64,000 nt of DNA from Geomonas subterranea. Its GTDB lineage: Bacteria > Desulfobacterota > Desulfuromonadia > Geobacterales > Geobacteraceae. Within the stretch, counting starts at the first letter, position 1. The number at the start of each line of letters is the position of its first letter. Both the position numbers and the translations under genes were made by a program. The DNA lies in the NCBI RefSeq assembly GCF_019063845.1, contig NZ_CP077683.1, positions 1,612,001-1,676,000 on the forward strand, written 5' to 3'. Shown piece after piece: positions 18,790 through 64,000 of the stretch. The notes below the pieces were generated by a model, which worked only from the letters and a program-made list of their open reading frames with translations, searched no databases and had not been told where the DNA came from.

Positions 18790-20166
18790 ATGAAACCGAC
18801 CACCAAGATACTGCTCATAGAAGACGATGACGGCAGCCGCGAGGCGATGCTCATCCTGCTCAAGGCAAGCGGCTTTGCCATCAAGGGATGCTCCAGCGGC
18901 AAGGAAGGCCTGGAGCAACTGGCGAGCGAGCCGTTCGACATCGTCATCAGCGACCTCTTCCTGCCCGACGTGAACGGCATTGACATCCTCACGCGGGTGA
19001 AGCAGGACTCCCCGCGCACCGAGGTCATCCTGGTCACCGGCCACGGCTCCGCCGAAACCGCGGTGCAGGCGATGAAGAAAGGGGCCTACGACTACATCAC
19101 CAAGCCCCTCAACATCGAAGAGCTGCGCATCATCATCGACAAGGCCGTGGAAAAGGGGCAGCTCTTAAGCGAGAACGTCTACCTCAAGAAGCAGCTGCAG
19201 GACAAGTACGAGTTCGCCAACATCATCGGAAACTCGCAGGCCATGCAGCAGCTCTTCTCGCGCATGAAGCGGATCATCAAGACCGATTCCACCGTCCTCA
19301 TCCTGGGCGAGTCCGGCACCGGCAAGGAGTTGGTCGCCAAGGCGATCCACTTCAACGGCAACCGGAAAGAGAAGCCCTTCATCGCGGTCAACTGCTCCGC
19401 TATCCCGGAAAACCTCCTGGAGAGCGAACTCTTCGGGCACGTGAAGGGAGCCTTCACCGGTGCAGTGAAGGAGAAGGTAGGCAAATTCGAGGCCGCCAAC
19501 AACGGCACCATTTTCCTTGACGAGATCGGCACCCTTCCCATGCACCTGCAGACCAAGCTGTTGCGCGTGCTGCAGGAGCAGGAAGTCGAGCGGGTCGGCT
19601 CAAACAAGCAGATCAAGCTGGACGTGCGTGTCATTTCCGCCACCAACGTGAACCTCGAGGAGGAAGTCGCGCGCGGCAACTTCCGCGAGGACCTCTTCTA
19701 CCGGCTCAACGTCATCCCGGTCCTGATCCCGCCTCTGCGTGAGCGCATCGAGGACATCCTCCCCCTCACCAGGCATTTTCTGGAGAAGAACTGCCGTTCC
19801 ATGCAGCGTCCCATCATGCACCTCGACAAGGACGCCCTGGAGGCGCTCGAGGCGTACCCCTGGAATGGCAACGTGCGCGAGTTGGAGAACATCATGGAGC
19901 GCATTGTCGCACTCACCGAAGGTGACGTCATCACGCTTCGCGACCTCCCCGCCAACATCGCCAAGAACCACCAGGAAGGCAACCACTCCGTCAGCGTGAC
20001 GCCGGCCGGCATCGACATGGTGCAGGCCATCAGCGAGATCGAGAAGCGCATGATCGGCGAAGCCCTGCAGCTGTCCGGCGGTGTCAAAGCCCGAGCCGCG
20101 GCCATGCTCAGCATCAACCGCACCACCCTCGTGGAAAAGATGCGCAGGCTGGGTATGCCTCTCTAG
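18790..20166 (+). CDS. Sigma54-dependent NtrC-family response regulator
   Basis: The 458-residue protein has a receiver domain (about 5-120: ILLIEDDDG acid pocket, IVISDLFLPDVNG phosphoacceptor, TGHGS, KP). A sigma54 AAA+ domain follows (about 140-380: GESGTGKELVA Walker A, GAFTGAVKEKVG contact loop, GTIFLDEIG Walker B), and then a Fis-type HTH at the C-terminus (GGVKARAAAMLSINRTTLV). It activates sigma54 promoters when phosphorylated. No kinase is adjacent, so its partner is elsewhere. The ATG at 18790 is chosen by the receiver start; the longer upstream frame overlaps the slipin gene on the other strand. Its stop lies 11 bp before the mobile element. Confidence 0.93.
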   Translation: MKPTTKILLIEDDDGSREAMLILLKASGFAIKGCSSGKEGLEQLASEPFDIVISDLFLPDVNGIDILTRVKQDSPRTEVILVTGHGSAETAVQAMKKGAYDYITKPLNIEELRIIIDKAVEKGQLLSENVYLKKQLQDKYEFANIIGNSQAMQQLFSRMKRIIKTDSTVLILGESGTGKELVAKAIHFNGNRKEKPFIAVNCSAIPENLLESELFGHVKGAFTGAVKEKVGKFEAANNGTIFLDEIGTLPMHLQTKLLRVLQEQEVERVGSNKQIKLDVRVISATNVNLEEEVARGNFREDLFYRLNVIPVLIPPLRERIEDILPLTRHFLEKNCRSMQRPIMHLDKDALEALEAYPWNGNVRELENIMERIVALTEGDVITLRDLPANIAKNHQEGNHSVSVTPAGIDMVQAISEIEKRMIGEALQLSGGVKARAAAMLSINRTTLVEKMRRLGMPL

Positions 20167-20177
20167 GCTGCAGCAGC

Positions 20178-20223
20178 TGTCGGGAGACAATTAAGTTGTT
20201 ACATCGACAATAAAGTCCTTACA
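20178..20223. repeat. Left end of the mobile element: terminal repeat plus one internal site
   Basis: The 26-bp terminal repeat (20178-20203) contains site L1, GACAATTAAGTTGTTACA. Site L2, GACAATAAAGTCCTTACA, follows at 20206-20223, exactly 20 bp (about two helical turns) further in. L2 is the exact reverse complement of site R3 at 26170-26187. Such phased sites are typical of transposase-binding ends. From 20224 to 20448 nothing else is recognised. Confidence 0.75.
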
Positions 20224-20448
20224 TTCTTCATTCACGAGTTGCCGGTTGATGCCGAAACCACCTCCTCCTGGCACCGCAGCAGCACCCCTCAAAAGAAGAA
20301 CATCCCCCCACAACCAAGATGGTAGTAGTGGATGCGACTCGGTAGAATAGGACCGCGACGCCCCAGTACGAGATGTGATTTGGCAGAAGTGACGCAACTG
20401 AAAAAGAGGGAGCCCGGAATTGGGAAAGTTAGAGGGAACTATGGAAAA

Positions 20449-20607
20449 TTAATCAGGCAGATGCATGCCCCCCCATACACCCGACAGATGATGCCGTTCT
20501 AAGGTGCGACAAGTGGTAAACGAAACGTCCTTATCGATAAAACACCTGATCAGCCAGGGACAGGCCACCCGGTCCACTTTGACATGCTCTCGCGTAATCC
20601 ATTTCAT
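20449..20607 (-). pseudogene. Truncated chrB-like chromate-resistance gene
   Basis: A strong AAAGGAGG site precedes an ATG at 20607. The first 30 codons (MKWITREHVKVDRVACPWLI, then RCFIDKDVSF) match what I know of the start of the ChrB C-terminal-type protein that accompanies ChrA chromate transporters. After about residue 32 the similarity is lost, and the frame stops at residue 52, far short of the usual 150 or more residues. The rest is not found downstream, where the element's left end begins. It is most likely a deletion remnant. Its gene order, downstream of chrA and a DUF1080-like gene on the same strand, fits a former chr operon. Confidence 0.65.
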
Positions 20608-20637
20608 CTTGTCCTCCTTTCGCAGCAAGCGTGATGT

Positions 20638-21297
20638 TCATTGAGCAGTTACCTCGACATTATCGAAGCAGGTCACCGAATCCGCCTTGGTCCATAACCC
20701 GACCCGGCCAGCCTTGAAGTCGTCATCGCGGGTTTCGATAACCAGGGCGCCGTTCAAGAACCCGCGCATGGTTTCTCCCTTTACCTCAATCCGTAATTCC
20801 TGCCAGTTGCCTGAAGGGACCCGTGCCGAACCTTCCTTGATGAGGCTACGGCTTCCACCCGAGTACCGATAGAGGTTCACGTTGTCTTCCAAGGCGTTGG
20901 CTCTCAGGATGTAGTAATTATCTTTGTCCTGAATCCGGAAGATAATCCCGGCAGCCCGGTCGACACTGCCTGAGACGGGTTTGAATCGAGCCGTCGCGAC
21001 GAAATCAGCGAAAACTTTGTCGCTCAGGGAGAGCGCCGGGTACTGTGCCGATCCCGTTTGGCACAGCACATTTGGCGAACTCGGAGCGCCTGCATCTTTT
21101 ATAACCTCCCAGGTCCCGCTGAACACCTCGACTCCTGCGGGAACGCCTCCAACCTTATCTGCATCGAAATTCCATCGCAGCGCCTGTCCGGCAGCCCCCC
21201 CTTGGCCCCGCGGATACTTCACGGTTGCCTGGGATCTTGTGCAGCCAATCACAAGGGTTGCCACCATCAGAGGAATTATCAAAAGTCTTCTTCTCAT
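20638..21297 (-). CDS. DUF1080/LamG-like lipoprotein
   Basis: A 219-residue exported protein with a lipobox (LMVATLVIGC, Cys19) and a concanavalin-like beta-sandwich. Its family features are LRWNFDADKVGGVPAGVEVF, VDRAAGIIFRIQDKDNYYIL and GRVGLWTKADSVTCFDNVEV. DUF1080 (3-keto-disaccharide hydrolase-like) domains bind or cut sugars in some proteins, but no catalytic residues are assigned here and the real substrate is unknown. It should sit in the outer or inner membrane facing the periplasm. A broken paralogue lies at 22832-23564 in the same element. AAGGAG precedes the ATG, and chrA lies 63 bp upstream on the same strand. Confidence 0.8.
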   Translation of the reverse strand: MRRRLLIIPLMVATLVIGCTRSQATVKYPRGQGGAAGQALRWNFDADKVGGVPAGVEVFSGTWEVIKDAGAPSSPNVLCQTGSAQYPALSLSDKVFADFVATARFKPVSGSVDRAAGIIFRIQDKDNYYILRANALEDNVNLYRYSGGSRSLIKEGSARVPSGNWQELRIEVKGETMRGFLNGALVIETRDDDFKAGRVGLWTKADSVTCFDNVEVTAQ

Positions 21298-21360
21298 CTT
21301 GATTCTCCTTCTTTTTTTGCTGCCTGGCCTGAACCGGCTGGGCAGCCCCCTTCCTTCCCT

Positions 21361-22539
21361 TCAGCACTTGTACAGCATGACACCTGCCACGGCTGCGATA
21401 GCGATTAGAAGCGGCTCGGGTATCTTGAAGCGCCAGAGGACCAGCACGCTTGCGAGGCCTATGATGGCGGTCGCGGGGTCAATAATGGAGCCTTCCCCAA
21501 GGATGACCGCCGCCCCCGCTATTGCCCCGGACGCGGCCGAAGTTGCCCCCTTTACGAATCCCTTCACGGCGGGCTTTTCCCTATAGCGGATGATATAGCG
21601 GCCGACAAATAGGACGAAACAATAGACCGGCAGGAACACCCCGGCTGCAGCCACGAGCGCTCCCCAGAATCCGGCGACCAGATAACCGACGAAGGCTGCA
21701 GTGATCACCACCGGGCCCGGAGTGATGATCCCCACGGCAACTGCGTCCAGGAACTCGCGCTCGTTCAGCCAGTGGTAGTGGAGGACCACTCCCTCGTGGA
21801 GGAAGGGAACGATGGCCAATCCGCTGCCGAAGGTGAACGCGCCGGCCTTGGTGAAGAAAGTGCCGAGTTCCAGCAGAACCGGAATGCTAACGGGTATGCC
21901 TAAGGCCGCCGGAACGCTGAAAAGACTGGAAACCGTGGACCAGGGTTTTGTCCAACTCCCCGCAGGGGCGTACAGGAGCACGCCGACGAGGCCCGCGGCG
22001 ACGAACAACAGCGCGATTTCGGTACGGGCTGCCACGGTGGCCAGCGCCACGACACCGAATATCGCCCACAGGCGCCGGTCGGAACCGACCGTGGTCCTGG
22101 CCAAGCGAAAAGCGGAAAGGGCCACGATGGCGATTATCGCTGGGCCAATGCCGTAGAAGAGGGCCTGAACCACGGAAAGCCCGTGGTAGGCTACGTAAAG
22201 ATAAGAAATGACGACCACGATCAAGAAGGTCGGTAGTATGAAGACGATGCCCACCAGCGAAGCGCCGACTACGCCGTGACGCAGGAATCCAATCCACATC
22301 GCAAGTTGGGCGGCAAGTGGGCCCGGCATCATCTGGGAGAAGGCGAGCCCCTCCCGGTATTCGTCCTCCGTAATCCATTTACGCGGCATCAGATCACGCT
22401 GCATGTAACCGGCAAGGGCGATGGGGCCGCCGAAACCGCTGGAACCCAGGCGCAGGAAATACAGGACCAACTCCCAGAGGCTGACCGGCATCAGGGCCTC
22501 CCCAGCGTCATTAAGTGTTGTCTCACCTGTCTCTTTCAT
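21361..22539 (-). CDS. chrA: Chromate efflux transporter ChrA
   Basis: This 392-residue inner-membrane protein has the two-half CHR architecture (long-chain ChrA). The first repeat starts with YFLRLGSSGFGGPIALAGYM and the second with FFTKAGAFTFGSGLAIVPFL. About ten hydrophobic segments are seen. ChrA exports chromate from the cytoplasm. I place the start at the ATG at 22539 (MKETGETTLNDAGE); the frame also opens at a TTG four codons upstream. The start almost touches the stop of a broken DUF1259 gene (22541), a sign of former operon coupling. It is intact although its neighbours are decaying, which suggests continued selection. Confidence 0.92.
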   Translation of the reverse strand: MKETGETTLNDAGEALMPVSLWELVLYFLRLGSSGFGGPIALAGYMQRDLMPRKWITEDEYREGLAFSQMMPGPLAAQLAMWIGFLRHGVVGASLVGIVFILPTFLIVVVISYLYVAYHGLSVVQALFYGIGPAIIAIVALSAFRLARTTVGSDRRLWAIFGVVALATVAARTEIALLFVAAGLVGVLLYAPAGSWTKPWSTVSSLFSVPAALGIPVSIPVLLELGTFFTKAGAFTFGSGLAIVPFLHEGVVLHYHWLNEREFLDAVAVGIITPGPVVITAAFVGYLVAGFWGALVAAAGVFLPVYCFVLFVGRYIIRYREKPAVKGFVKGATSAASGAIAGAAVILGEGSIIDPATAIIGLASVLVLWRFKIPEPLLIAIAAVAGVMLYKC

Positions 22540-22540
22540 G

Positions 22541-22787
22541 TCATTTGGCAAGGTTGATCCTTCCGAGCGCCGCCTTGAGGCCGGTCGCCAGTTTCTCCGG
22601 GTCGTCGTAGCCCCATAAGTGGAGGAAGAAAAGGCGCCGAGACTCGAAAAGCATATGGCTGTGCACGGCCGTTACGCTGATGCCATGGCCCACCAGCACC
22701 TGGATCACCGGGTTCACTTCGCTGCCGATCAGGACGAAATCGCCGGTTGTGGCAGCCTAAGGAAAGAATAAACAAGGTACGTTTCAT
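22541..22787 (-). pseudogene. Broken DUF1259 protein gene
   Basis: The 5' part encodes a start and the beginning of a signal peptide (MKRTLFILSLG). The 3' part, in another frame, reads TTGDFVLIGSEVNPVIQVLV, then GHGISVTAVHSHMLFESRRL and FFLHLWGYDDPEKLATGLKA. That is the C-terminal half of DUF1259 (LppY/LpqO-like exported proteins often found near chrA). The middle is missing and the halves are joined out of frame near 22750, so this is a deletion pseudogene. The stop lies 1 bp before the chrA ATG. Confidence 0.75.
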
Positions 22788-22831
22788 TATTCCTCAATTT
22801 GCCCTGTTTCGGGCACGTCAGGATATTGCGG

Positions 22832-23564
22832 TCACTTCGGCTTGACGGATACGTCCCCGAAGAAAATGTACGAGTCCGCCTTGGACCACAGAACGATCCT
22901 GCCGTCGATGTTCTCCTTCCAAGTATAGTCGACATACTTCGTGCTATTCAGGGACCCCTCAATCTTCTTCCCGGTGACCACCACACGGAGCGCGTTCCAC
23001 TGGTTGCCTGGGACCGGGAGCTTGCCGACCCACTGTACCGAGGAGCGCCTCCCTTGTTCCATTTTGAAAAAGACCACGTTGTTTTCCACAGCATTTGCCC
23101 GGATGACTAGGTAATCGCCGTTGGGCTTGATGTTGAAGGCCCGGCGGCCTGGTCGATCCTGCAGCTCACCGGTTTGAAGGTGGTTTCAACGGTTCCTCCT
23201 GGAAGGTTTTCACTTCCTTGAATACAGAGAGCGGGGAGTAGCGATACGCCTCAAGGTTGTGGAGAAACCCTGTGGAACTCTCGCCATAAAGCGCTCTCGC
23301 CTTTGCTCCGGCTGCGGGCGCCATTACCCCCTGTTCCCAGTTTCTACCGTCCACCGCATAGACGGACCTGGAGCCATCCCGGTTGATGTGCCAGTTGCCG
23401 ATCAAGGAACTGAACGACTTAGCTTCCGTCCCCGGCATCTCATTGCTGAAATCGAAATGCTGCAAACCTTTGGCGAGAACGGGAAGAGATCCAAAGCAAA
23501 GGATTGCCGTCACCAGCATGGCTTTCGGATAGGTTCTTTTTTTTGCTATGGTGAAAATGGACAT
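22832..23564 (-). pseudogene. Frameshifted second DUF1080-like exported protein
   Basis: The N-terminal part (23564 down to about 23200) encodes a signal peptide (MLVTAILCFGSLPVLA) and FDFSNEMPGTEAKSFSSLIG. The C-terminal part (22832-23120) encodes YLVIRANAVENNVVFFKM and GRIVLWSKADSYIFFGDV. Between them, ETTFKPVSCRIDQAAG is in a third frame. At least two frameshifts (near 23200 and 23130) break the gene. The product was a paralogue of the intact protein at 20638-21297, sharing the RANA-x-E-x-NV and LW-(S/T)-KADS motifs. A good AAGGAG start site remains. Confidence 0.8.
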
Positions 23565-23679
23565 GGCCCTGTTCGTCTCCTTCAGGTCCCGCCGCTGCTA
23601 GGTTCAAGCCATCAATAGGAAGGGGCCTGCGCAAGCACAGGCCCCCATGTTTGCCTAGGAACACCAAGAATCGGCGTTG

Positions 23680-24918
23680 CTATCCCTTTCTGATCTTAAC
23701 AGCGAGGGTAGTACTGTTTATCTCCGTCTGATCTCCGCTAAAGGACCGGACATTGTAGCGGTTCAGGTCATAGATCAGACGAGCCTTGACCGTGTACTCC
23801 CCGGGCTTCAGTCCGGGCGCCCAGGGAAGAATCCGTTCTTCTCCGGCGCGTATGTTAGACTCGTGGGGTCCCTGTGCATCGGCCTGGCTTGCGGCAACAG
23901 CGTCGGGACGCTTCTTGTCCTCTTCTAGGAACTTCTTGTCGTCGGGACGGTTGCCGTAGGAGGGGGCGATCATCCATTCCTTGGTCGCCACCTTCTTCCC
24001 TTTCTTGTCCGTCACTTCAACGTTCAGGTAAATCGCCCTGCGGTTTGAGCCGGTGGGGACCGAATGTCCCGCGCCGATGTTGATCAGGTGGAAGGTCAAC
24101 CCGGCTTTTCCTTCCTCGGGCTGGCTGATCGCCATGCTGAGGGCGCTGGCCAGCCGCTGCTGGGAGCGGCCGCCGGTCCAAAGGTGCCGAGACACCGGGC
24201 GCTCCGGGTTGTCAAAGTCTTCGGCCACCTTACGCGTGGTGCGCGGCATGTGGCAGTCCTGGCACTGCTGTTTACCCAGCCCCGGCTTGCTGAAATCCTC
24301 GCGCCACTCCAGGAAGGTCTGGGTCTGCTTCCCGACGACCCTTTTCCCCATGCTGTGGCAGTAAGCGCACATGGCCGAGGTCTGGATGGGCGGATCGGCT
24401 ACCGTGCCGTGAGGCGCCGCCACGCTGTGAGGCCCCCTTATCTTGCCTTCCGGGGTGAGGTGGCAACTGGCGCAGGTAATCCCAACCTTTTCCTTGTCCT
24501 TCGCCCGCCCTTTGGGCTTGGTCATCTCGGCGATGTTGATATCCGGGATAGCGAAGGGCTCCGGGTAGTGACAGACGTTGCAAGACTTCCCTTCTTCCTC
24601 CGCCTCGCGGGCGTGAATTGGATAAGGCTCCACCCCTGCAAAGGCGTGGGCTGTTGCCATGGCCGATACACCGGCCGGCATGGTGATCTTTTCCCCCTCC
24701 TTCTGCGGAATGGTCGTCGGCTTGTAGTGAATGTCGCTTCCGAATCCGAAGGCGAACTCACGGTAGATCGCCTTGTGGCACCCTCCACAGGTCTCCGAAG
24801 GCGTTGCGGTCCCCTCCGGGAAGGCCATCTCCTCCGCCATCGCGCTGGCTGCGAACGCGGCTGTTGCCAATAGTGCTGCGAATCCGACCTTCAATCCCGA
24901 TACGGTCCTCTTCTCCAT
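23680..24918 (-). CDS. Periplasmic pentaheme c-type cytochrome
   Basis: A 412-residue exported cytochrome. A signal peptide (GLKVGFAALLATAAFAASAM, cleavage after AMA) is followed by five CxxCH heme sites: CGGCH (44-48), CNVCH, CASCH, CAYCH and CQDCH, all in the N-terminal 240 residues. Extra histidines in between (for example DIHYKP, HAFAG, MPRTTRK region) may be distal ligands. The C-terminal 170 residues form a beta-rich domain (FHLINIGAGHSVPTGSNRR). This two-part plan occurs in metal- and nitrogen-oxide-related multiheme proteins of Geobacter-like bacteria; the substrate is unknown. I chose the ATG at 24918 (GAGGGGG upstream) over the frame's earlier start. Confidence 0.9.
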   Translation of the reverse strand: MEKRTVSGLKVGFAALLATAAFAASAMAEEMAFPEGTATPSETCGGCHKAIYREFAFGFGSDIHYKPTTIPQKEGEKITMPAGVSAMATAHAFAGVEPYPIHAREAEEEGKSCNVCHYPEPFAIPDINIAEMTKPKGRAKDKEKVGITCASCHLTPEGKIRGPHSVAAPHGTVADPPIQTSAMCAYCHSMGKRVVGKQTQTFLEWREDFSKPGLGKQQCQDCHMPRTTRKVAEDFDNPERPVSRHLWTGGRSQQRLASALSMAISQPEEGKAGLTFHLINIGAGHSVPTGSNRRAIYLNVEVTDKKGKKVATKEWMIAPSYGNRPDDKKFLEEDKKRPDAVAASQADAQGPHESNIRAGEERILPWAPGLKPGEYTVKARLIYDLNRYNVRSFSGDQTEINSTTLAVKIRKG

Positions 24919-24963
24919 TTTTTCCCCCTCTGTGTTGTTCGCTTTTTTCAAAGCTGTGTATGG

Positions 24964-25400
24964 TCAAGTTGTGACTGCCGGGATAACGATCCTAAAGGTA
25001 CATCCTTTGCCATCTTCACTCTCCAGTTCAAGCCGTCCGCCGTTAAACTCCACCGCCCAGCGGGCAATAGCCAGTCCCAGCCCCGTTCCACCCATATCCC
25101 GGGAGCGTCCCTTGTCGACGCGGTAGAAGCGGTCAAAGACCTTCGCTTGGTGCTCCTTTGCGATGCCCGGCCCGTCATCTATTACCTCGATTACGGCCCC
25201 GTCCTGCCCCCTTTTTCTGACCACCACCCTGATCTGGCCACGTTGTGGAGCATATTTCACCGTTCACCGCATTATCGATCAGGTTGATCACCCCCTGGCG
25301 GATCGTAGCGGCGTCGACCTCAGCGTAGGCAGGCTCCGCATCCAGAAGAATACTCTGCTCCTTCTCTTCAGCAAGAACCTCGATGCAGTCGATCACCTCG
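24964..25400 (-). pseudogene. Sensor histidine kinase remnant (ATPase domain only)
   Basis: Only the C-terminal catalytic domain remains. The N-box region (ATIRQGVINLIDNAV) is followed, after a one-base frameshift near 25260, by KYAPQRGQIRVVV and then the G boxes VIDDGPGIAKEHQAKVFDRF and GGTGLGLAIARWAVEFNGG. The sensor, HAMP and phosphorylated-histidine regions are gone. Its 5' end joins directly to the receiver remnant, so one deletion removed the regulator's DNA-binding domain and the kinase's front half. Confidence 0.8.
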
Positions 25401-25655
25401 GCGCACCGAATCCTTCGCGGTCAGGATCAGGACAGGCGTCTCGAATCCGCGCGTCCTGAGCGTTGTCAGGATCTCGATCCCGTCGCGTCCAGGAAGCATC
25501 AGGTCGAGAGGGACTAGGTCGAATACTTCCGCGTTCAACTGGAAGAACCCGTCCTCCCCGCTGTAGGCCACCGTTACCTCGTACTGCTCCGCTTCCAGCC
25601 CTATTCTTAGGGCTTGAGCCACCTTTATTTCGTCTTCGATCACCAAAACGTGCAT
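25401..25655 (-). pseudogene. OmpR/PhoB-type response regulator remnant (receiver domain only)
   Basis: From an ATG at 25655 (MHVLVIEDEIKVAQALRIGL, AAAGGA upstream) about 85 codons of a receiver domain remain, including the phosphoacceptor Asp51 in DLVPLDLMLPGRDG and the LILTAKDSV strand. The winged-helix output domain is deleted and the frame runs into kinase sequence. A perfect 8-bp inverted repeat upstream (25715) may have been its operator. The pair probably regulated the cytochrome/chr genes that follow on the same strand. Confidence 0.78.
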
Positions 25656-25714
25656 GTGCGCTGTATCCTTTGTCTGCATTATTGGCGAGAAGCATTGTCT
25701 TCCCAACTGAAGTT

Positions 25715-25736
25715 ATTCTGACAAATTAGTCAGAAT
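25715..25736. promoter_or_regulatory. Perfect palindrome upstream of the regulator remnant
   Basis: ATTCTGAC and GTCAGAAT flank the 6-nt spacer AAATTA, centred about 70 bp upstream of the receiver remnant ATG. It is AT-rich and symmetric like a dimeric-regulator operator, and lies where the promoter of the element's leftward operon should be. The bound protein is unknown. Confidence 0.4.
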
Positions 25737-26169
25737 TAACACGAAAATGGTGTCAGCACTTCTCGGGGGGTGGCAATAGGAGGCGGCCACTATGCAAAAT
25801 ATGTGACCGCAATCGGGGGATATACAACTTCAGGAACAAAGATATTAAACACGGGAAACAGCAAGTTGCAAATGGGGGGGGTAAATCTGGTGTCAAAATA
25901 CAAACCTTTGACCATCATGCACTTCCCACGGACCATGGCCAGGACGGGAGAAGGGCTTTTCTCTCAAACAGAACCAAAAGTCACCTGACGTCAGGCAGGT
26001 AGTTAGCAGAGAAATGCTGATAGTCCATCTGGGTGGGGCGTTGGCGGCATAGAAGCAACAAACTGCTGTCGTCGCAGTTATGATGGTAGGTGGATACGCT
26101 TTTGCTTTGAAGGTTCGGGGAATGCCGTCCTGCTCATGCAGACCACAACTACTCCCTCTTACATCAAAA
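25737..26169. other. Non-coding interior of the element's right side
   Basis: No credible gene is seen on either strand: the open frames are short and have no family features. The only other structure is a 12-bp palindrome, CCTGACGTCAGG, near 25984. This is where a transposase gene might be expected, and none is present. Confidence 0.6.
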
Positions 26170-26314
26170 TGTAAGGACTTTATTGTCTGGGGAATCGTCT
26201 AATGAAAAACATGCAGGAAATGTAAGAACTAATCGTGCTGAGTCAGATAACGCCACCAGCGTAAAAACAGGGGATTCGCGTCTCATTTTGTAAGGACTTA
26301 ATTGTCTCCTGACA
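26170..26314. repeat. Right end of the mobile element: three phased motif copies
   Basis: Site R1 is in the terminal repeat (TGTAAGGACTTAATTGTC at 26289-26306, ending TCCTGACA at 26314). R2 is degenerate (TGTAAGAACTAATCGTGC, 26221-26238). R3 (TGTAAGGACTTTATTGTC, 26170-26187) is the exact inverse of left site L2. All three face outward. Unequal numbers of sites at the two ends (two left, three right) are common in Tn7-like elements. From 26315 to 26514 nothing is recognised beyond the GCAGCAGC flank. Confidence 0.75.
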
Positions 26315-26514
26315 GCAGCAGCATAGTCGGAAGAAACACATGAGATCATGGGCGTCCCCATGTCCCCCCCCATTGATGACCACGACACGACGCCTCCATG
26401 ACGCCCCAGACGTTCAAAACCATAAATCAACCGAGGTTACCTGAGGACTTGGCATGGAGAGTCACTGTGATTCTTCTGCAGATGGGAGATCAGCGCCGGC
26501 TAGCAGTTGCCTGT

Positions 26515-27657
26515 CTACTTGGACGCCGGGTCCATGAGGTATTGTTCCTCGCTGACCTGTTCTTTCCAGTCCGCGGTCTTGCCGTCCAGGCTCTCCTGAA
26601 TGGCGACGTGGGTCATAGCAGAATTTGGCGCGGCTCCGTGCCAGTGCTTTACGCCAGGCGGAATCCATGCCACATCTCCTTGCTTGAACTCCACAATGGG
26701 GTCACCCCACTGCTGTATCCGGCCAGCGCCTGCGGTCACGATCAGAGTCTGACCGTACGGATGTGAATGCCATGCGGTTCGAGCACCAGGTTGGAACGTG
26801 ACGGCTCCCCCGGTAGTGCGTGATGGATCGTGCGCGTTGAACAGCATTTGGATTTTTACGGAACCGGTGAAATAATCAGCTGCCCCCTGGCTTGAAGCCA
26901 GTGAACCGCTTCGAGTAACACTGATCCTATGCTCGGTCTGCCTGAGGCCCAACACGTCACTTAATACTTTATTGGCATTTGCGGCTTCCTTCCTGCCAAC
27001 TGTGATCTCCAGAATATTTATCACATTACGCAACTGCAATTCGGTCAGTCCGACATTCAGCCCGACGTTAAAGTGAGACTGCAACTGAGGATTCACCCCG
27101 TCGATGCAAGCCAGGGCCGAAATTGTCGCTATTTCCCGGCTCTGGAAATCCAGGTTGTCACGTCCGAAGATGTCCCCGAAAAGGTGTCCCTTCAAGAAAG
27201 CGTCAATGGCCGGGGCGAAAGTAATATATTTCCCTGTGGCAGGTGCACCTATCAGGCGAGTCTGGATCTCCGTTCCGAGTTCGACGCTGCTCTTGCCGGC
27301 AGGCATAGGGCCAGGTTCTTTGCCGGGAACGTCCTTGATCCCTTTCCGTTCCCGTTCTTCCAGAACGGCCATGAAGGTATTGATGCCGTTCAGGCTGCGG
27401 GGAAAACCAGCGTAGGCGTACATCTGCACGAGTACTTCCTTAATCTCGTTGATGGTCAAACCGGCATCCAGACCTTCATTCAAGGCCGTTTTCAGTTTCT
27501 GTTGATTGCCATTGGCAGTGAAAGCAGCAATGGTGACAATCTTATCCTCTTTGGCACTCAAACCTCGGTCTGTCATGGCCTGAACCTCCGAAGCGCCCGG
27601 AATAGTCAGGAATGCGCTGAGAATGACCGACAGGATTATTGCTAATTTCTTGTTCAT
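26515..27657 (-). CDS. Exported carboxymuconolactone decarboxylase-like/cupin fusion protein
   Basis: This 380-residue protein starts with a signal peptide (LAIILSVILSAFLTIPGASE). Two CMD/AhpD-like helical domains follow (about 35-110 and 150-235: LNEGLDAGLTINEIKEVLVQ and FNVGLNVGLTELQLRNVINI). A C-terminal cupin (about 265-360) carries metal-binding histidines in WHSHPYGQTLIV and WIPPGVKHWHG. CMD domains here lack an obvious CxxC peroxidase pair. Related exported CMD-cupin proteins are annotated near short-chain and iron dehydrogenases, but their reaction is unsettled. It is the last gene of a leftward group with the MFS exporter and iron dehydrogenase. GAGGTG precedes the ATG. Confidence 0.85.
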   Translation of the reverse strand: MNKKLAIILSVILSAFLTIPGASEVQAMTDRGLSAKEDKIVTIAAFTANGNQQKLKTALNEGLDAGLTINEIKEVLVQMYAYAGFPRSLNGINTFMAVLEERERKGIKDVPGKEPGPMPAGKSSVELGTEIQTRLIGAPATGKYITFAPAIDAFLKGHLFGDIFGRDNLDFQSREIATISALACIDGVNPQLQSHFNVGLNVGLTELQLRNVINILEITVGRKEAANANKVLSDVLGLRQTEHRISVTRSGSLASSQGAADYFTGSVKIQMLFNAHDPSRTTGGAVTFQPGARTAWHSHPYGQTLIVTAGAGRIQQWGDPIVEFKQGDVAWIPPGVKHWHGAAPNSAMTHVAIQESLDGKTADWKEQVSEEQYLMDPASK

Positions 27658-27710
27658 GCGTGCACCTCGCGAAGGTTAATCTAGCTCTTTTTTGGCAAGC
27701 CGGTCGGACA

Positions 27711-28985
27711 TCATGTCTGCAATTCGTCCCTAGAAGGGATCAGCAACAACATCGACAGTAGGCAGCCGATGCCGCTTAGGGCGACGACCAGCCCCAGAGG
27801 CCAGGGAGTACCGTCGGCCCACAGCCCCACCAGCCCCGAACCGAAGATGCCGCTGCCGTACTGAACGGCACCGGTCAACGCAGAAACGGCACCGGCACGG
27901 TGCGGGAAATCGGCCAAGGCACCGGTAATCGAGTTGGCGACGATGAAACCGGTGGTCGAAGCAAAGAGAAACAGAGGCACAACCAGTCCCCAAAGCCCCC
28001 CCAGGCCGCTGTGCGCGGCAAATCCAGCCCAAACGCTGGTCCCCAAGGCCGCGATAGTTCCTGACAAAAGAATCCGGTCGTGGCCGAAACGGCCGACCAG
28101 CCAACGGTTCAGTATATTGGCAAGCATGATGCCGATGATGCCAAGGCCGAACAGCAAGCCGTAGAGTCGGGCCGGGAAATGGTAATAGCTGATATAGGCA
28201 AAGGGGGTTCCGGCAACATAGGCAAACATGCCGGCATAAAGAAAGCCGCCTGCCCCAAGATAACCCAACAGCCGGCGATTCTTCAGCAACTCGACGTAAC
28301 GAAACAGGGCCCTGCTGAACGGTTCGCTGTTGCGCTTTGCCATGGGCAGCGTTTCCGGTATGGTGTAGAGCGCTCCCAGGGTCACAAGTCCGACGGCGAC
28401 CAGGAACCAGAAGATCGCCCGCCAACCTGATACAGCGACAATCTGCCCGCCGAGGAGCGGACCGACCAAGGGCATGATGGCCATCACCGTTATCAGGGTG
28501 GAAAGCATCTGGGCGGCGCGGGTCCCCTCGTAGAGGTCTCGCACCATGGCACGTGACAAGGCGACGCTTGCGCATGCGCCAAGCGCCTGCACGATCCTCC
28601 ACCCGATCATCGTCGCCACGTCGTTTGACAGTGCGCAGCCAGCCGAACCGACCACAAACAGGATCAGCCCGCTGCCGACCGCCAATCGACGCCCGTAGCG
28701 GTCACTGATCACCCCCCAGACCAACTGCCCCGAGCTGAACCCTATCAAATAGCCGGAGATGGTCCACTCGATCATGCCGGTGCGCGCGTGCAAGGAACGA
28801 CTCATCACCGGCATGGCCGGCAGGTAAAGATCGGTCGAAACCGAGGCGAACCCCATCAACAGGCTCAGTACACCGAGCACATACCAGCCGGGCCTGGGAT
28901 CTGTTAGAGCCAAAACATCCCCATCTGTATCGATTTCCGTTCCGCCGCACGGACTCGTACCGCCATTTATTGCAAGAGCTTTCAT
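27711..28985 (-). CDS. MFS transporter, Bcr/CflA drug-resistance type
   Basis: A 424-residue inner-membrane protein with about twelve hydrophobic segments. The MFS loop 2-3 motif is visible as GVISDRYGRRLAVGSGL, and the drug:H+ antiporter style FASVSTDLYLPAMPVMSRSL at TM1 is characteristic of the Bcr/CflA group. It would export small molecules with proton import. Start at the ATG at 28985 (MKALAINGG) is tentative: a GTG four codons upstream is also possible and neither has a strong ribosome-binding site. It lies 53 bp before the CMD-cupin gene and 76 bp after the dehydrogenase, so the three are probably co-transcribed. Confidence 0.88.
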   Translation of the reverse strand: MKALAINGGTSPCGGTEIDTDGDVLALTDPRPGWYVLGVLSLLMGFASVSTDLYLPAMPVMSRSLHARTGMIEWTISGYLIGFSSGQLVWGVISDRYGRRLAVGSGLILFVVGSAGCALSNDVATMIGWRIVQALGACASVALSRAMVRDLYEGTRAAQMLSTLITVMAIMPLVGPLLGGQIVAVSGWRAIFWFLVAVGLVTLGALYTIPETLPMAKRNSEPFSRALFRYVELLKNRRLLGYLGAGGFLYAGMFAYVAGTPFAYISYYHFPARLYGLLFGLGIIGIMLANILNRWLVGRFGHDRILLSGTIAALGTSVWAGFAAHSGLGGLWGLVVPLFLFASTTGFIVANSITGALADFPHRAGAVSALTGAVQYGSGIFGSGLVGLWADGTPWPLGLVVALSGIGCLLSMLLLIPSRDELQT

Positions 28986-29061
28986 TTCTCTGTCCACTAT
29001 CCTTTCAATTGCGGAACCACGGTGCCCATCCGGATGTTCCGAATGGGCACTGACTTGTCGC

Positions 29062-30249
29062 CTAAAATGCCATGCGCATGATTTGCAACACCTCGTCCTT
29101 GCCGAGAGAGGTCAGGATGCCGAGGTTCCCGTTTTCAACGGCTTTCTCTGCCATGACTGCCAGGTCTTCTTCCTTGACGCCTGCCTCGCGCAGGTTCGCC
29201 GGCATTTTGATGGCCGAATAAAATGTTTCCAGCTTCTTAACCCCTTCCTCTGCCGCTTTGGCATCATCGTCCTCTCGGACATCCATGACATTGCGGGCGA
29301 ATCGCGCGAAGACCGGCAGGTGCTCAGGGGCAGTGCTCATGGTGTGGCGCATCCAGGAAGGCGTCAGCAGCGCCAGGGTAACCCCGTGCGTCATGTCGTA
29401 CTTGCTGGAAAGTTCGTGCCCCATGCCGTGCAGCGGGAAAGGGAATCCCGGCTTTCCCAGCACGAACTGGAATCCCGCCAAAGCCATGGAACTGGCCCAC
29501 ATGATGTTGGCGCGGGCGTCGTAATCCTTCGGGTCCGCGAGAATCTTCGGGGCCTCCTCCAGAACAGCCTTCATGACCCCCTCGTTCATGCGGTCCTGGA
29601 CCTTCGCCGCCCCCTCGGGAGTAAAGTATTGCTCCATCAGATGGCACAGGATGTCCGCGACCCCCGCCATGGAATGATATTCCGGCACCGTGTAGGTGTA
29701 CTCAGGGTCCAGGATGGAGAATTTGGGGTTGAGCAGCGGATGCAGGACCACCTTTTTCTTGTGATCTTCGCCGACGGTGATGACACCCCCCATATCCAGT
29801 TCAGAGCCCGTTCCCGCCATGGTCAGGATGGTCGCAAGCGGAGCTACCGCGGTGATCTTGGACGAGATACCGGATTCATCGACAAACAGATCGTGCACCT
29901 GGCCTTCGTATTTCACACCGGCGGCAATGGCCTTGCAGGCGTCCAGGGTCGAACCGCCGCCCACGGCGAGAATGAAATCGCAGCCGTTTTCGCGGTAGGT
30001 GGCAATCCCTTCCTCTACGCTTTCAATCCTCGGATTCGGCTGTATCCCGCTCAACTCAACATAGGCCAAGCCGGCTTTGTGGAGCTGATCGAGGATCGCT
30101 CCGTAGATACCGTTTTGCTTTATGCTGCCGCCGCCATATGCCAAGAGCACCTTGGAGCCGCCATGTGTCTTGATGGTCTCGCCGAGTATCTCGATTTGCC
30201 CCTTGCCGAAATATGCGATGGTGGGAATGCTGAAGATAAAATTATTCAC
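29062..30249 (-). CDS. Iron-containing alcohol dehydrogenase (YqhD/BDH type)
   Basis: A 395-residue group III alcohol dehydrogenase that interconverts aldehydes and alcohols with NAD(P)H. The nucleotide site shows as LLAYGGGSIKQNGIYG and LAVGGGSTLDACKAIA. The metal-binding residues lie in VADILCHLMEQYF (H) and HGMGHELSSKYDMTHGV (two H). It reads like NADPH-dependent butanol dehydrogenase/YqhD, which detoxifies aldehydes. The start is a GTG at 30249 with a strong AAAGGAG 7 bp upstream. It is the first gene of a likely operon with the MFS and CMD-cupin genes. Confidence 0.92.
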   Translation of the reverse strand: MNNFIFSIPTIAYFGKGQIEILGETIKTHGGSKVLLAYGGGSIKQNGIYGAILDQLHKAGLAYVELSGIQPNPRIESVEEGIATYRENGCDFILAVGGGSTLDACKAIAAGVKYEGQVHDLFVDESGISSKITAVAPLATILTMAGTGSELDMGGVITVGEDHKKKVVLHPLLNPKFSILDPEYTYTVPEYHSMAGVADILCHLMEQYFTPEGAAKVQDRMNEGVMKAVLEEAPKILADPKDYDARANIMWASSMALAGFQFVLGKPGFPFPLHGMGHELSSKYDMTHGVTLALLTPSWMRHTMSTAPEHLPVFARFARNVMDVREDDDAKAAEEGVKKLETFYSAIKMPANLREAGVKEEDLAVMAEKAVENGNLGILTSLGKDEVLQIMRMAF

Positions 30250-30762
30250 GTCTGTTCTCCTTTGATGTGTTTGGTACTCGCGTTGATAATCGGATCGTAC
30301 ACCCGTGCAGAAAAAGGAGGTAGTTTGATCCTGTCTGTTTATTGCCTGATCGTCCGGCTGCCGAATTTTTTGGTGCAGCCAGGCTAGGCGGAAGCCGTGG
30401 TTAAGGTAGAGGTCTACTTGGTAAATGGCAGGGTAATGTTCGACTAGTTGCGGTTGGAGCTACCGTAGCGCTGGCTGCAGGTATTGCCCGTTGCACCGGG
30501 ACTAGAAACCTAAGTGGATGCCTGGCATCGGGAATGGGGTTCTGCACCTAAGGAGTCAACTCCCCAGGGCGCACAGGACGGGGGCTGGGGGCAGGCGGTG
30601 CGCTGGTGATCTTCAAAACGACAAATGGCGGCAGGTGAGTCCATCAAAATCGAGCGCTGAAAACGTCGGAAGCATGGTAGGCAGCAGCTTGAAGGAAGAC
30701 CGTTAGGCGAAAGTAGGCGGGAAGTACCTACGCTCAGACGGGGATTGCTGAAGACTGGCTCC
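30250..30762. other. Intergenic region without a recognised gene
   Basis: About 510 bp between the dehydrogenase start and the REP transposase element. An AAAAAGGAGGTAG sequence near 30308 resembles a ribosome-binding site but is followed by no credible frame. I see no structured RNA or terminator. Confidence 0.5.
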
Positions 30763-31480
30763 AAGGAAAAGGGGACAGGCTACTTTTCCTTTTTAGGGCG
30801 CCCCCGTGGATGGAGTGTTGATTCGAGCCCGAGTTCTCCGCAAACAGTTTCTACCCACGCGTCGGCTCCAAACGGTGTGTGCCTGTTGACGCTCCTCCGA
30901 AGACGTTCAACTTCATTTGCCGTCATAGGATCGTCTACGTAGCTAGTCCAATCAGCGGGAAGGGCGATAGGTGCATCATCAATGATATTCCTGGGCTGAC
31001 GACCAAGTCGCTCCACGTGCGAGGACCACTTCCAGTTTTTGCTGCTTTTCACAAGATTTGCCCGAACCGGGTTACCCTCGATATACCGCATCACGGTAAG
31101 CAGGTGGTCATCTTCCTGAACAATGAAACTCTTATACCTTCCTTGCCACACATGCCCGCAGGTCCCGTAGTGCTGGTGATACCGTCTCACATGCGAAGTC
31201 AGCAGCCATTGCATGAACTTACCAAGCGTCTGCGCCTTCCCTGGATTTATAAGAAAATGAAAGTGGTTTGGCATCAGACAGTAGGCAAGTACCCCAATGT
31301 CGAATTCACCCACGGCCTCTTCGATCAACATCAGAAAGGAATAGTAATCGCCATTTTTATGGAAGACTTCCTGTCGAGCATTCCCTCTATTCAGTACATG
31401 GAAAAGGAACCCGTCACTGAGCCCTCGTGCTATTCTCGGCATCCAATATCTCCAGAAAAGTAGCCTGTCCCCTTTTCCTT
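30763..31480. mobile_element. REP-associated tyrosine transposase unit with perfect 26-bp inverted repeats
   Basis: Left (30763-30788) and right (31455-31480) ends are perfect 26-bp inverted repeats with the core GGGGACAGGCTACTTTTC. They bracket one Y1-type transposase gene whose stop codon lies inside the left repeat. No target duplication is evident. I recall similar AAAAGGGGACAGGCTACTTTT sequences around such genes in many genomes. Confidence 0.8.
30780..31442 (-). CDS. REP-associated tyrosine transposase (Y1_Tnp/IS200-like)
   Basis: This 220-residue HUH-superfamily enzyme cuts single-stranded DNA hairpins through a tyrosine. The two-histidine metal motif is in YCLMPNHFHFLINPG near residue 58. 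The likely nucleophile is the Tyr of VMRYIEGNPVRANLV near residue 120. The start (MPRIARGLSDGFLFHVLNRG) and GHVWQGRYKSF segment are typical of the REP-associated (RAYT) branch. GGAGAT precedes the ATG at 31442. The gene is intact, so the unit could be active; such genes usually act on short palindromes in the genome. Confidence 0.92.
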   Translation of the reverse strand: MPRIARGLSDGFLFHVLNRGNARQEVFHKNGDYYSFLMLIEEAVGEFDIGVLAYCLMPNHFHFLINPGKAQTLGKFMQWLLTSHVRRYHQHYGTCGHVWQGRYKSFIVQEDDHLLTVMRYIEGNPVRANLVKSSKNWKWSSHVERLGRQPRNIIDDAPIALPADWTSYVDDPMTANEVERLRRSVNRHTPFGADAWVETVCGELGLESTLHPRGRPKKEK

Positions 31481-31486
31481 TGTCCG

Positions 31487-31828
31487 CTAGCGGGAGGTGG
31501 CGCCTTGCTTAACCGGCGGAATGCCTACTTCCACGGCACCAAGAGCTCTTGTTCCTGAAGCCGCCGTTCCCAAACAACCGGTGATTTCTCCGTTCCTTAT
31601 CACCCACACTCCTTGCTGGGGGACTTCAACCTGACAGACCATCCCAATAGCTACGCTGCAGTCGGAGGTGCTGAAGTTAACCGTGTGGTCAACTTGACCG
31701 TTGTAGGAACAATCGCAGGCACAGTGAAACACCTGCTGCTTCGGTAGGGCCAACCCCGGACTCGCTGACCCACACAAAACGCCAAGAGACACACAACCTG
31801 TCACCAAGTTTTTCGAAAGTCGCCGCAT
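31487..31828 (-). CDS. Small exported Cys-containing hypothetical protein
   Basis: From an ATG at 31828 (MRRLSKNLVTGCVSLGVLCG; GGAGGAG upstream) the 113-residue product has a signal peptide ending near ALA and a mature part with six cysteines, including FHCACDCSYNG, which could form disulfides or bind metal. No family is recognised. It is divergent from the acetyltransferase and lies 7 bp outside the right repeat of the transposase unit. It may be a recent arrival, since its codon use looks less GC-biased than the core genes. Confidence 0.6.
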   Translation of the reverse strand: MRRLSKNLVTGCVSLGVLCGSASPGLALPKQQVFHCACDCSYNGQVDHTVNFSTSDCSVAIGMVCQVEVPQQGVWVIRNGEITGCLGTAASGTRALGAVEVGIPPVKQGATSR

Positions 31829-44652: not shown

Positions 44653-45070
44653 CATGAGCATCGCGTCGGGGGCATGAGCCTTACGATCGGGGACATGAGC
44701 CTTATGATCGGGGACATGAGCCTTATGATCGGGGGCATGAGCCTTACGATCGGGGACATAAGCCTTATGATCGAGGGCATGAGCCTTATGATCGGGGGCA
44801 TAAGCCTTATGATCGGGGCATAAGCCTTATGGTCGAACACATGAGCCTTATGGTCGATGGCATGAGCCTTATGGTCGAGAACATGAGCCTTATGGTCGAG
44901 AACATGAGCCTTATGGTCGAGGGCATGAGCCGTATGGTCGAGGGCATGAGCCGTATGGTCGAGGGCATGAGCCTTATGGTCGAGGGAACGGGCCTTATCG
45001 TCGAGGGTATGAACCTTATGGAGGACGGCAGGAGCCTCATGATTGAGGGTGTGACCTTCTTGGTGGAAGG
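44653..45070. repeat. 21-bp minisatellite, 20 tandem units
   Basis: Twenty head-to-tail units based on CATGAGCCTTATGGTCGAGGG cover 418 bp: eighteen of 21 bp and two of 20 bp (units 1 and 8). Units drift from GATCGGGG-type in the left half to GGTCGAGG-type in the right half. Read on the plus strand, the units encode the heptad M-S-L-M-(V/I)-(E/G)-(G/D), in one frame before unit 8 and another after it, because that unit lacks one base. No ribosome-binding site precedes either frame. There are no unique spacers, so it is not a CRISPR array. Confidence 0.85.
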
Positions 45071-62996: not shown

Positions 62997-64000
62997 GACA
63001 GTTCCTTCTCCTGCTCAGGAGTAAGCTTCTTGTCAGTCGGCAGTTCGGTCTTTCCCCCCGGCACTGTTGGCTTCACGAGTTTGGGCGTGATGAAGAACAC
63101 AAGTTCCTTCTCGGTGATGTCTTTGCTGCTGGAACGAAACAGCGCCCCCAGGATCGGGATGTCGCCTAGCAGGGGGATCTTGGACATGTTCCTGACCTCA
63201 TCCTCCTGCAACAACCCCGCGAGGATCAGGCTTTCGCCGTCTCTCAGTTCCACGCTGGTTTCGACCGTCCTGGAATCGATGATGGGGTAGCCATTGACGG
63301 GGAGGAAACCCTGGATACTGCTGACCTCGGCAGGATTGATCTTCAGGGAGATCATGCCGTTTTCCAGCACCTCGGGCTTGAACTTCAGTTTTATGCCGAT
63401 CGGCTCGTACCTGATGCTGGTGGTGGCCTGACCGTTGGTGCTCTCGATGATGGCGATGGGTACCTTGCTCCCCGCCAGGAAGTTCCCTTCCTGCGAGCTC
63501 TTGACCAGAAGGTTCGGTTCGGCAAGCACCTTGGCGAGCCCCTTCGAGCTCAGCGCCTGCAGAACCGAGGAGATGCCGGCGGGAAAATAGGACACGCCGG
63601 CCTGGTAGGTATCCAAGGTGGCGAAGTTGCCTATGCCGGTCCCCACCCCGGTGGCCTTGCCGTCCGGTCCGCCGATCACGTTGGAGAACCCCTCGGCGGT
63701 GTTCCCCTTGACCAGAAAGCTTATGCCGAGCTTCTTCAGGGATGTCTTGTCCACCTGGGCGACCTTCACCTGCAAAAGCACCTGCTGGGGCTCGTTCACC
63801 GTGATGTTGTTGATGACCTTGGCGGAGAAGGCCTTGGCGAGTTCCTGGGCCTTGGTCCTGGTCTGGTCGTTGGCGACGTTGCCCGAGAGCACCACGGTGT
63901 CATTGGCGTACTGGACGTCGATGGTGTCCTTGGGCGCCATCTCCCTGATCTGGCCCTGGATGGTCTCGCGGTCACCGACTACTCTCAGGTCGAAAAAGGT
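62975..64000 (-). CDS. Tad pilus secretin RcpA/CpaC (5' end beyond window)
   Basis: The visible 341 C-terminal residues lie in one open frame reaching the right edge. A BON-like N-domain end (IDVQYANDTVVLSGNVANDQ) is followed by an N-type ring domain (INNITVNEPQQVLLQVKVAQ) and the secretin core with ISLKINPAEVSSIQGFLPVN, the TSVELRDGESLILAGLLQED signature and the C-terminal KELVFFITPKLVKP. It forms the outer-membrane pore for the Flp pilus. Several hundred residues at the N-terminus are missing, including the signal peptide. It is the first visible gene of the tad operon. Confidence 0.92.
   Translation of the reverse strand, partial: TFFDLRVVGDRETIQGQIREMAPKDTIDVQYANDTVVLSGNVANDQTRTKAQELAKAFSAKVINNITVNEPQQVLLQVKVAQVDKTSLKKLGISFLVKGNTAEGFSNVIGGPDGKATGVGTGIGNFATLDTYQAGVSYFPAGISSVLQALSSKGLAKVLAEPNLLVKSSQEGNFLAGSKVPIAIIESTNGQATTSIRYEPIGIKLKFKPEVLENGMISLKINPAEVSSIQGFLPVNGYPIIDSRTVETSVELRDGESLILAGLLQEDEVRNMSKIPLLGDIPILGALFRSSSKDITEKELVFFITPKLVKPTVPGGKTELPTDKKLTPEQEKELSWMPLGK

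Follow-up and report, generated by a model that had tools for sequence, protein, structure and literature searches.

A 6.1-kb element at positions 20178-26314 of a 64,000-nucleotide stretch of the Geomonas subterranea genome (contig NZ_CP077683.1; this whole stretch is hereafter called the window) is probably a defective Tn7-like transposon, the tns module of which was most likely lost after the element had arrived behind the gene of a sigma-54-dependent response regulator. Judged by sequence, the family is Tn7 and not IS21; Tn7 was chosen over both Tn5053 and IS21 because tnsABC and tniQ/tnsD are found in relatives that have the same ends. That Tn7-like islands use dedicated attachment sites is well established, and the present analysis adds a Tn7-like lineage with its attachment site behind a sigma-54 response regulator. 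Since tns-bearing, tns-less and single-end copies occur at this one site in related species, both the life of such islands and their decay become readable.

Element ends and attachment site

The regulator gene, the two ends and the flanking repeats in the window are as follows.

18847..20166, + strand: 3' part of a sigma-54-dependent NtrC/AtoC-type response regulator gene (in-frame stretch searched); presumably, TnsD recognizes the conserved 3' end of this gene as the attachment site
20170..20177, + strand: left copy of the flanking repeat, GCAGCAGC; candidate 5-bp duplication GCAGC at 20173-20177
20178..20243, + strand: right-type (Tn7R-like) end; terminal TGTCGGGA, then TnsB-type sites at 20186-20203 and 20206-20223 in a 20-bp phase
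26143..26314, - strand: left-type (Tn7L-like) end; TnsB-type sites at 26289-26306 and 26170-26187 and, in the interval, a degenerate site at about 26221-26234
26315..26322, + strand: right copy of the flanking repeat, GCAGCAGC; GCAGC at 26315-26319

The original prediction, made from the letters of the window, had described inverted terminal repeats at 20178-20203 and 26289-26314, extra copies inside both ends, a direct flank on either side and an insertion 11 bp after the regulator stop, and all of these were seen again. The termini match at 23 of 26 positions, the longer arms 20169-20203 and 26289-26323 are 86% complementary, the inner copies at 20206-20225 and 26168-26187 are exact inverses over 20 bp, GCAGCAGC adjoins both ends, and the element begins 11 bp past the stop codon, which ends at 20166. 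With up to two mismatches, GACAATWAAGTCCTTACA occurs four times in the window, every time at the element ends, and not at all in 100 dinucleotide-preserving shuffles of the window. The exact sequence occurs three times in the whole 4,991,523-base genome, always at the element, and its reversed control does not occur. The 23/26 pair by itself is not extreme; the case for an element rests on the inner sites, on the repeat that flanks it and on its relatives.

An end of Tn7 has an 8-bp terminus starting with TGT, followed by TnsB sites of about 20 bp, and the ends in the window resemble the known Tn7 sequence in both respects. They also have the Tn7-type layout, with predicted TnsB sites close together at the right and spread at the left, although the right end has two close TnsB-type sites, identified by sequence, compared with four in Tn7. 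As in Tn7, which uses TnsABC with TnsD and the site attTn7 behind glmS, the close-site right end adjoins the target gene, the insertion lies just past a conserved gene and the duplication is probably 5 bp. The target differs, being the 3' end of the sigma-54 response regulator gene, 10-12 bp past the stop, instead of glmS, and Tn7 carries tns genes whereas the window copy does not. Passages of PMC11406308 and PMC8649781 describe Tn7 ends in the same terms, with close sites at the right, spread sites at the left and the right end upstream of the tns genes.

The searched regulator stretch gave 117 NCBIfam matches, the best being AtoC and NtrC; all 25 matches listed were under the cut-offs. Orthologous DNA is present in all 19 genomes of the genus, and the C-terminus is conserved as NRTTLV(E/G)KMRRLG(M/I). 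In seven of the 20 genomes compared, an element end lies 10-12 bp past the stop of this gene; six are among the 19 genus genomes, searched up to 40 bp from the stop, and the seventh is H2geo, which belongs to another genus and was assessed by eye. The offset is 10 bp in Geomonas edaphica Red53 (G017) and UBA9964 (G026), 11 bp in the window, G018, G020 and H2geo, and 12 bp in G016. The right-type end is nearest to the regulator in six of these seven, the window included, and the element of G020 is reversed. When both strands were scanned for 1.5 kb around the regulator, only a left-type end in Citrifermentans bremense R1 (G015) was added; the other 12 genus genomes have no end within 1.5 kb on either side of the gene. 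Exact GACAATWAAGTCCTTACA was found in five of 48 family genomes, with eight matches in total, each of which lies behind this regulator or marks the distal terminus of the G. edaphica element starting there. Ends unrelated to insertion boundaries, which the original prediction had named as evidence against itself, were not seen, and its view of the place behind the regulator gene as a harmless target is supported.

A degenerate pattern of the termini matched seven stretches in 84,980 species genomes: two in H2geo, two in G. edaphica Red53, one each in UBA9964 and C. bremense R1, and one on a Flavobacteriales contig. The last (L018) was treated as a chance match, as its genome contains no Mu-transpos_C domain and about two such matches are expected by our own arithmetic.

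Relatives carrying transposition genes

Three elements at the same site contain a tns operon, and a fourth resembles the window copy in size.

PJFC01000004.1, 233555-253885: H2geo element, 20.3 kb, two ends, tns operon
NZ_SSYB01000001.1, 330033-408785: G017 element (G. edaphica Red53), 78.8 kb, two ends, tns operon
C2 806119-857778: G018 element, 51.7 kb, two ends, tns operon
C17:99143-105152 (L014 6144-12153), opposite orientation: G020 element, 6.0 kb, both ends, no tns genes found

The first three share with the window copy the kind of ends, the attachment site and the orientation, and differ from it in being 20.3, 78.8 and 51.7 kb long with tns genes, as against 6.1 kb without them. Copies of the ends flanking a transposase/ATPase operon in related genomes, which had been proposed as a check, were found. 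The H2geo element encodes TnsA (285 amino acids), TnsB (724), TnsC (538) and TnsD/TniQ (551), homologous to the Tn7 proteins in the Protein Data Bank (PDB) with E values of 6e-53, 4.5e-93, 5e-65 and 2.5e-21, respectively, and these match the TnsA-like, Mu-transpos_C, TniB/AAA, TniQ and TnsD models of Pfam. The elements of G017 and G018 encode homologues of all four proteins, with 43-47% identity for TnsA and TnsB; the tnsC gene of G018 is split into two frames. In all three elements tnsA is the tns gene closest to the regulator, and the operon runs away from the regulator. There is one tniQ/tnsD gene in H2geo and two each in G017 and G018, where they form tandem pairs (G018 C2 844899-848326; G017 C1 391750-395014), the second of which could serve another target pathway.

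A TnsB-like protein is present in ten of the 48 genomes (E <= 1e-5), with at least 43% identity only in H2geo, G017 and G018. Remoter homologues of 34-38% identity (G011:C2:953310-955151, G019:C2:688834-690858, G041:C99 and G045:C154) presumably belong to other Tn7-like lineages. Outside the elements, G017 and G018 are each about 89% identical to G020, and this alignment indicates one chromosomal place with three different occupants. The flanks of G018 and G020 align from 9 and 23 bp outside the ends, weakly (74% over 136 bp), and their right ends agree at 88% of aligned positions.

Incomplete occupants and end anatomy

The G020 element occupies the same site as the window copy; both are tns-less and about 6 kb long, and their left ends are 85% identical over 172 bp. 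It differs in its reversed orientation, its cargo and its repeat (GTCTC). One end only was found in G015 (19 kb), G016 (40 kb) and G026 (87 kb read), that of G015 being of the left type and about 750 bp downstream of the regulator. No TnsB-like protein was detected in G016, G020 or G026 (E <= 1e-5). The right-type ends have two 20-bp-phased sites in the window and G016 and three in G017, G018, G020, G026 and H2geo, with an extra site about 44 bp further in for G016, G017 and H2geo. The left-type ends of the window, G017, G018 and G020 consist of an outer site, a degenerate middle site and an inner site at about 120 bp. In G026, proteins encoded behind the element end (L017 11503-15471) resemble, as judged by eye, TIR-type or other defence-like cargo.

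Target-site duplication

Direct 5-bp repeats adjoin the ends in H2geo (CCCTC/CCCTC) and G020 (GTCTC/GTCTC). The flanks in the window are compatible with a duplication of 2, 5 or 8 bp, and the original prediction had put the ambiguous length at 5-8 bp; by analogy with H2geo and G020, the duplication is probably 5 bp (GCAGC). If a terminal T is shared in G017 (C1 408785/330033) and G018 (C2 806119/857778), the duplication there would end in T.

Cargo

The interior of the window element contains the following genes and remnants.

20638..21297, - strand: LamG-like / 3-keto-disaccharide-hydrolase-domain protein, open frame of 219 amino acids (PF06439, E 3.7e-12)
21361..22551, - strand: chromate transporter ChrA, open frame of 396 amino acids (PF02417, E 2.9e-78)
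22832..23564, - strand: second LamG-like gene, broken, in frames 22832-23089 and 23166-23564; PF06439 below cut-off in one and no match in the other
23680..24951, - strand: multihaem c-type cytochrome, open frame, the sole copy in the genome at E <= 1e-20
24964..25706, - strand: response-regulator / histidine-kinase remnants with HATPase_c and Response_reg matches, the middle missing compared with relatives

Both fragments of the second LamG-like gene match adjacent parts of a single gene in relatives. The kinase and regulator pieces, about 1.5 kb apart in G006, are more than 1 kb closer together in the window. The order ChrA, LamG, cytochrome, kinase and regulator is also found in G006, which belongs to another genus. 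Relatives of the cytochrome occur in 21 of the 48 genomes (E <= 1e-20), the window genome included, and lie in a shared chromosomal neighbourhood in G013, G016, G017, G018, G020 and G024. No end-like site (up to two mismatches) was found in the 12 cytochrome loci of relatives examined. The same operon at other places without ends points to a general Geobacteraceae-type operon that was picked up as cargo. The original prediction had held that the same cargo without these ends in related genomes would speak against it; such cargo does exist in relatives, yet this fits a transposon that captured a chromosomal operon. On plasmids, similarity was found only at 60-80% identity, and the annotated rows among the eight listed of 87 records are chromate transporters. 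The cargo suggests how an operon for metal transport and a cytochrome can be parked behind a regulator gene.

Absence of transposition genes and history of the element

No tns gene or relic was detected in window positions 20178-31600 by tblastn with the Tns proteins of H2geo, G017 and G018 (E <= 0.1), and the same search found no tns genes in the stretches of G020, G015, G016 and G026. The genome of the window species has no match to Mu-transpos_C (PF09299) at E <= 1, a model that does recover the TnsB of H2geo, and no TnsB-like protein at E <= 1e-5. An element with phased sites but without its own transposase, as originally predicted, is therefore supported. Complete Tn7-like transposons are recognized by tnsA, tnsB and tnsC with TniQ/TnsD; H2geo, G017 and G018 have this set and the window copy has none of it, and for this reason the latter is classed as a defective derivative.

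In the proposed history, TnsABC would have been guided by a TnsD reading the 3' end of the regulator gene and would have inserted the element 11 bp past the stop, with its right end towards the regulator and with a putative duplication of 5 bp (GCAGC). The chromate-transporter/cytochrome/sensor operon, which relatives keep at other chromosomal places, would have been brought in with it. The tnsABC-tniQ/tnsD module would then have been lost, most likely by internal deletion after arrival. The cargo appears to be decaying, and the element is apparently immobile at present, unless its ends are acted upon by a related element arriving in the cell. Loss after insertion is favoured by the decay of the cargo, the other incomplete copies at the site and the lack of a TnsB homologue in the genome. 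The original prediction had concluded that the element must move, or have moved, in trans; this is not supported, as the data are explained as well or better by a loss of tns that followed an ordinary insertion.

Several observations weigh against this history. No genome examined showed an exact empty allele corresponding to the window copy: by eye, the post-stop sequence of the 12 genus genomes without ends does not line up with the right flank in the window, and G014 and G015 agree over the first bases downstream of the stop, yet the two do not align across the left end in G015. A cargo-only element that lacked these genes from the start would also account for the complete lack of tns relics, and the tns-less units of about 6 kb in the window and G020, which share a left-end type and differ in cargo, could indicate a non-autonomous lineage. 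The flanks of G017 (GTCG) and G018 (CGTC) repeat over 4 bp only, which becomes 5 bp on counting the terminal T of the right end as part of the repeat, and the repeat in the window is GCA-rich, so that 5 and 8 bp cannot be told apart from the window copy alone. The opposite insertion in G020 is a further such point. As passages of PMC11406308 report, Tn7-like elements control the orientation of insertion, and the reversal in G020 is therefore unusual; a later inversion and an aberrant insertion are suggested as alternatives. Furthermore, the genome of G026 is a draft that is 85% complete, so that its missing end and tns genes may be due to assembly loss.

Alternative explanations

The genes to the right of the element bear on how far the remains of transposition extend.

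26515..30249, - strand: carboxymuconolactone-decarboxylase/cupin-like, major facilitator superfamily (MFS) transporter and iron-type alcohol dehydrogenase (Adh) genes, named by eye

The G018 element contains relatives of these three genes in unchanged order (46, 83 and 88% amino-acid identity), and relatives also occur inside the G017 element. Furthermore, the regulator in G011 is followed almost immediately by the counterpart of the gene at 31488 of the window. The region from 20178 to about 30.3 kb might accordingly be the remains of a tandem, in which the 6.1-kb unit stands beside an older G018-like element that has lost its ends, a possibility that is less likely than not. No end-like site was found past 26314 in the window, a single match with six mismatches at 63031 having been discounted, and the MFS-Adh pair is also found elsewhere in G011, G019, G023 and G024. 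Because of these other locations, 26515-30249 may be ordinary DNA, and the tandem stands merely as an alternative. In G019, a relative of the window MFS gene lies about 12 kb from the distant TnsB homologue.

A cargo-only, non-autonomous Tn7-like element that was moved as a 6.1-kb unit by TnsABC-TnsD in trans is an unlikely alternative to the loss of tns after arrival, but one with definite points in its favour. Miniature and cassette derivatives of insertion sequences offer a parallel for mobilization in trans. The flanking repeat and both ends frame a unit that contains neither tns genes nor relics of them, the G020 unit of 6.0 kb has the same site and left-end type with other cargo and its own 5-bp repeat, and tns-bearing elements are present in close species. 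However, the 48 genomes yielded a single copy of each tns-less unit, in both cases at this site and in a genome without a TnsB-like protein; the other incomplete copies suggest that loss is common at the site, and the flanking repeat is silent on when tns was lost. It is, if anything, slightly more doubtful that Geobacteraceae contain a cargo-only class of small tns-less units with standard ends, which would use the site of the full elements, move in trans and shuttle respiratory and metal-transport operons. If such a class is true, surveys based on tnsB cannot see these units. The boundary-finding method for Tn7-like elements given in a passage of PMC8649781 starts from tnsB, and tns-less copies such as that in the window therefore escape it.

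Membership in, or derivation from, IS21 or Tn5053/Tn402 is very improbable. Elements of the Tn5053/Tn402 type have tniABQR without TnsA and a preference for res sites, whereas the tns-bearing relatives have TnsA and TnsD and their target is the end of a chromosomal gene. These families also have multiple terminal transposase sites, which a passage of PMC8649781 states for Tn5053, and the original prediction had considered Tn7, Tn5053 and IS21 alike. The choice fell on Tn7; both other assignments were dropped once tnsA and tniQ/tnsD had been found between the same kind of ends. In addition, the transposase of these relatives best matches TnsB of Tn7, insertion occurs at one fixed place behind one gene, and no istAB or tniABQR elements with these ends were noticed in the end-pattern scans, which included no search aimed at istAB. 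That the end repeats are due to chance, unrelated to transposition, can practically be dismissed: a lone 23/26 inverted pair is expected about 0.2 times per 64 kb (simple binomial), but the window has four sites where 100 shuffles gave none, and in other species ends of this kind accompany tns genes behind this very gene.

Literature context and minor observations

The AbaR/Tn6022-type islands in comM, of which many deletion forms are known, are likewise site-specific Tn7-like islands in a conserved gene. They have another target gene and the selector TniQ-TnsF, according to a passage of PMC10293859. A Tn7-like site behind a sigma-54/Fis-type regulator, or Tn7-like elements of Geomonas, were not found in open-access titles and the beginnings of abstracts, and supplements may list the site. 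A Geobacteraceae Tn7-like lineage was not met in the open literature searched, including passages of PMC11406308, PMC6990116 and PMC2621215. Neither 'sigma-54' nor 'Geobacter' occurs in the main texts of PMC10293859 and PMC8649781, and where 'Geobacter' and 'Tn7-like' occurred together in the passages checked, the terms were unrelated.

Elsewhere in the window, positions 30780-31442 encode a protein that we take, from its motif, to have the look of a REP-associated tyrosine transposase. The stretch 44653-45057 of the window is repetitive, with a period of about 21 bp by alignment with G021, and there are repetitive reading frames immediately outside the G020 and G017 elements as well.

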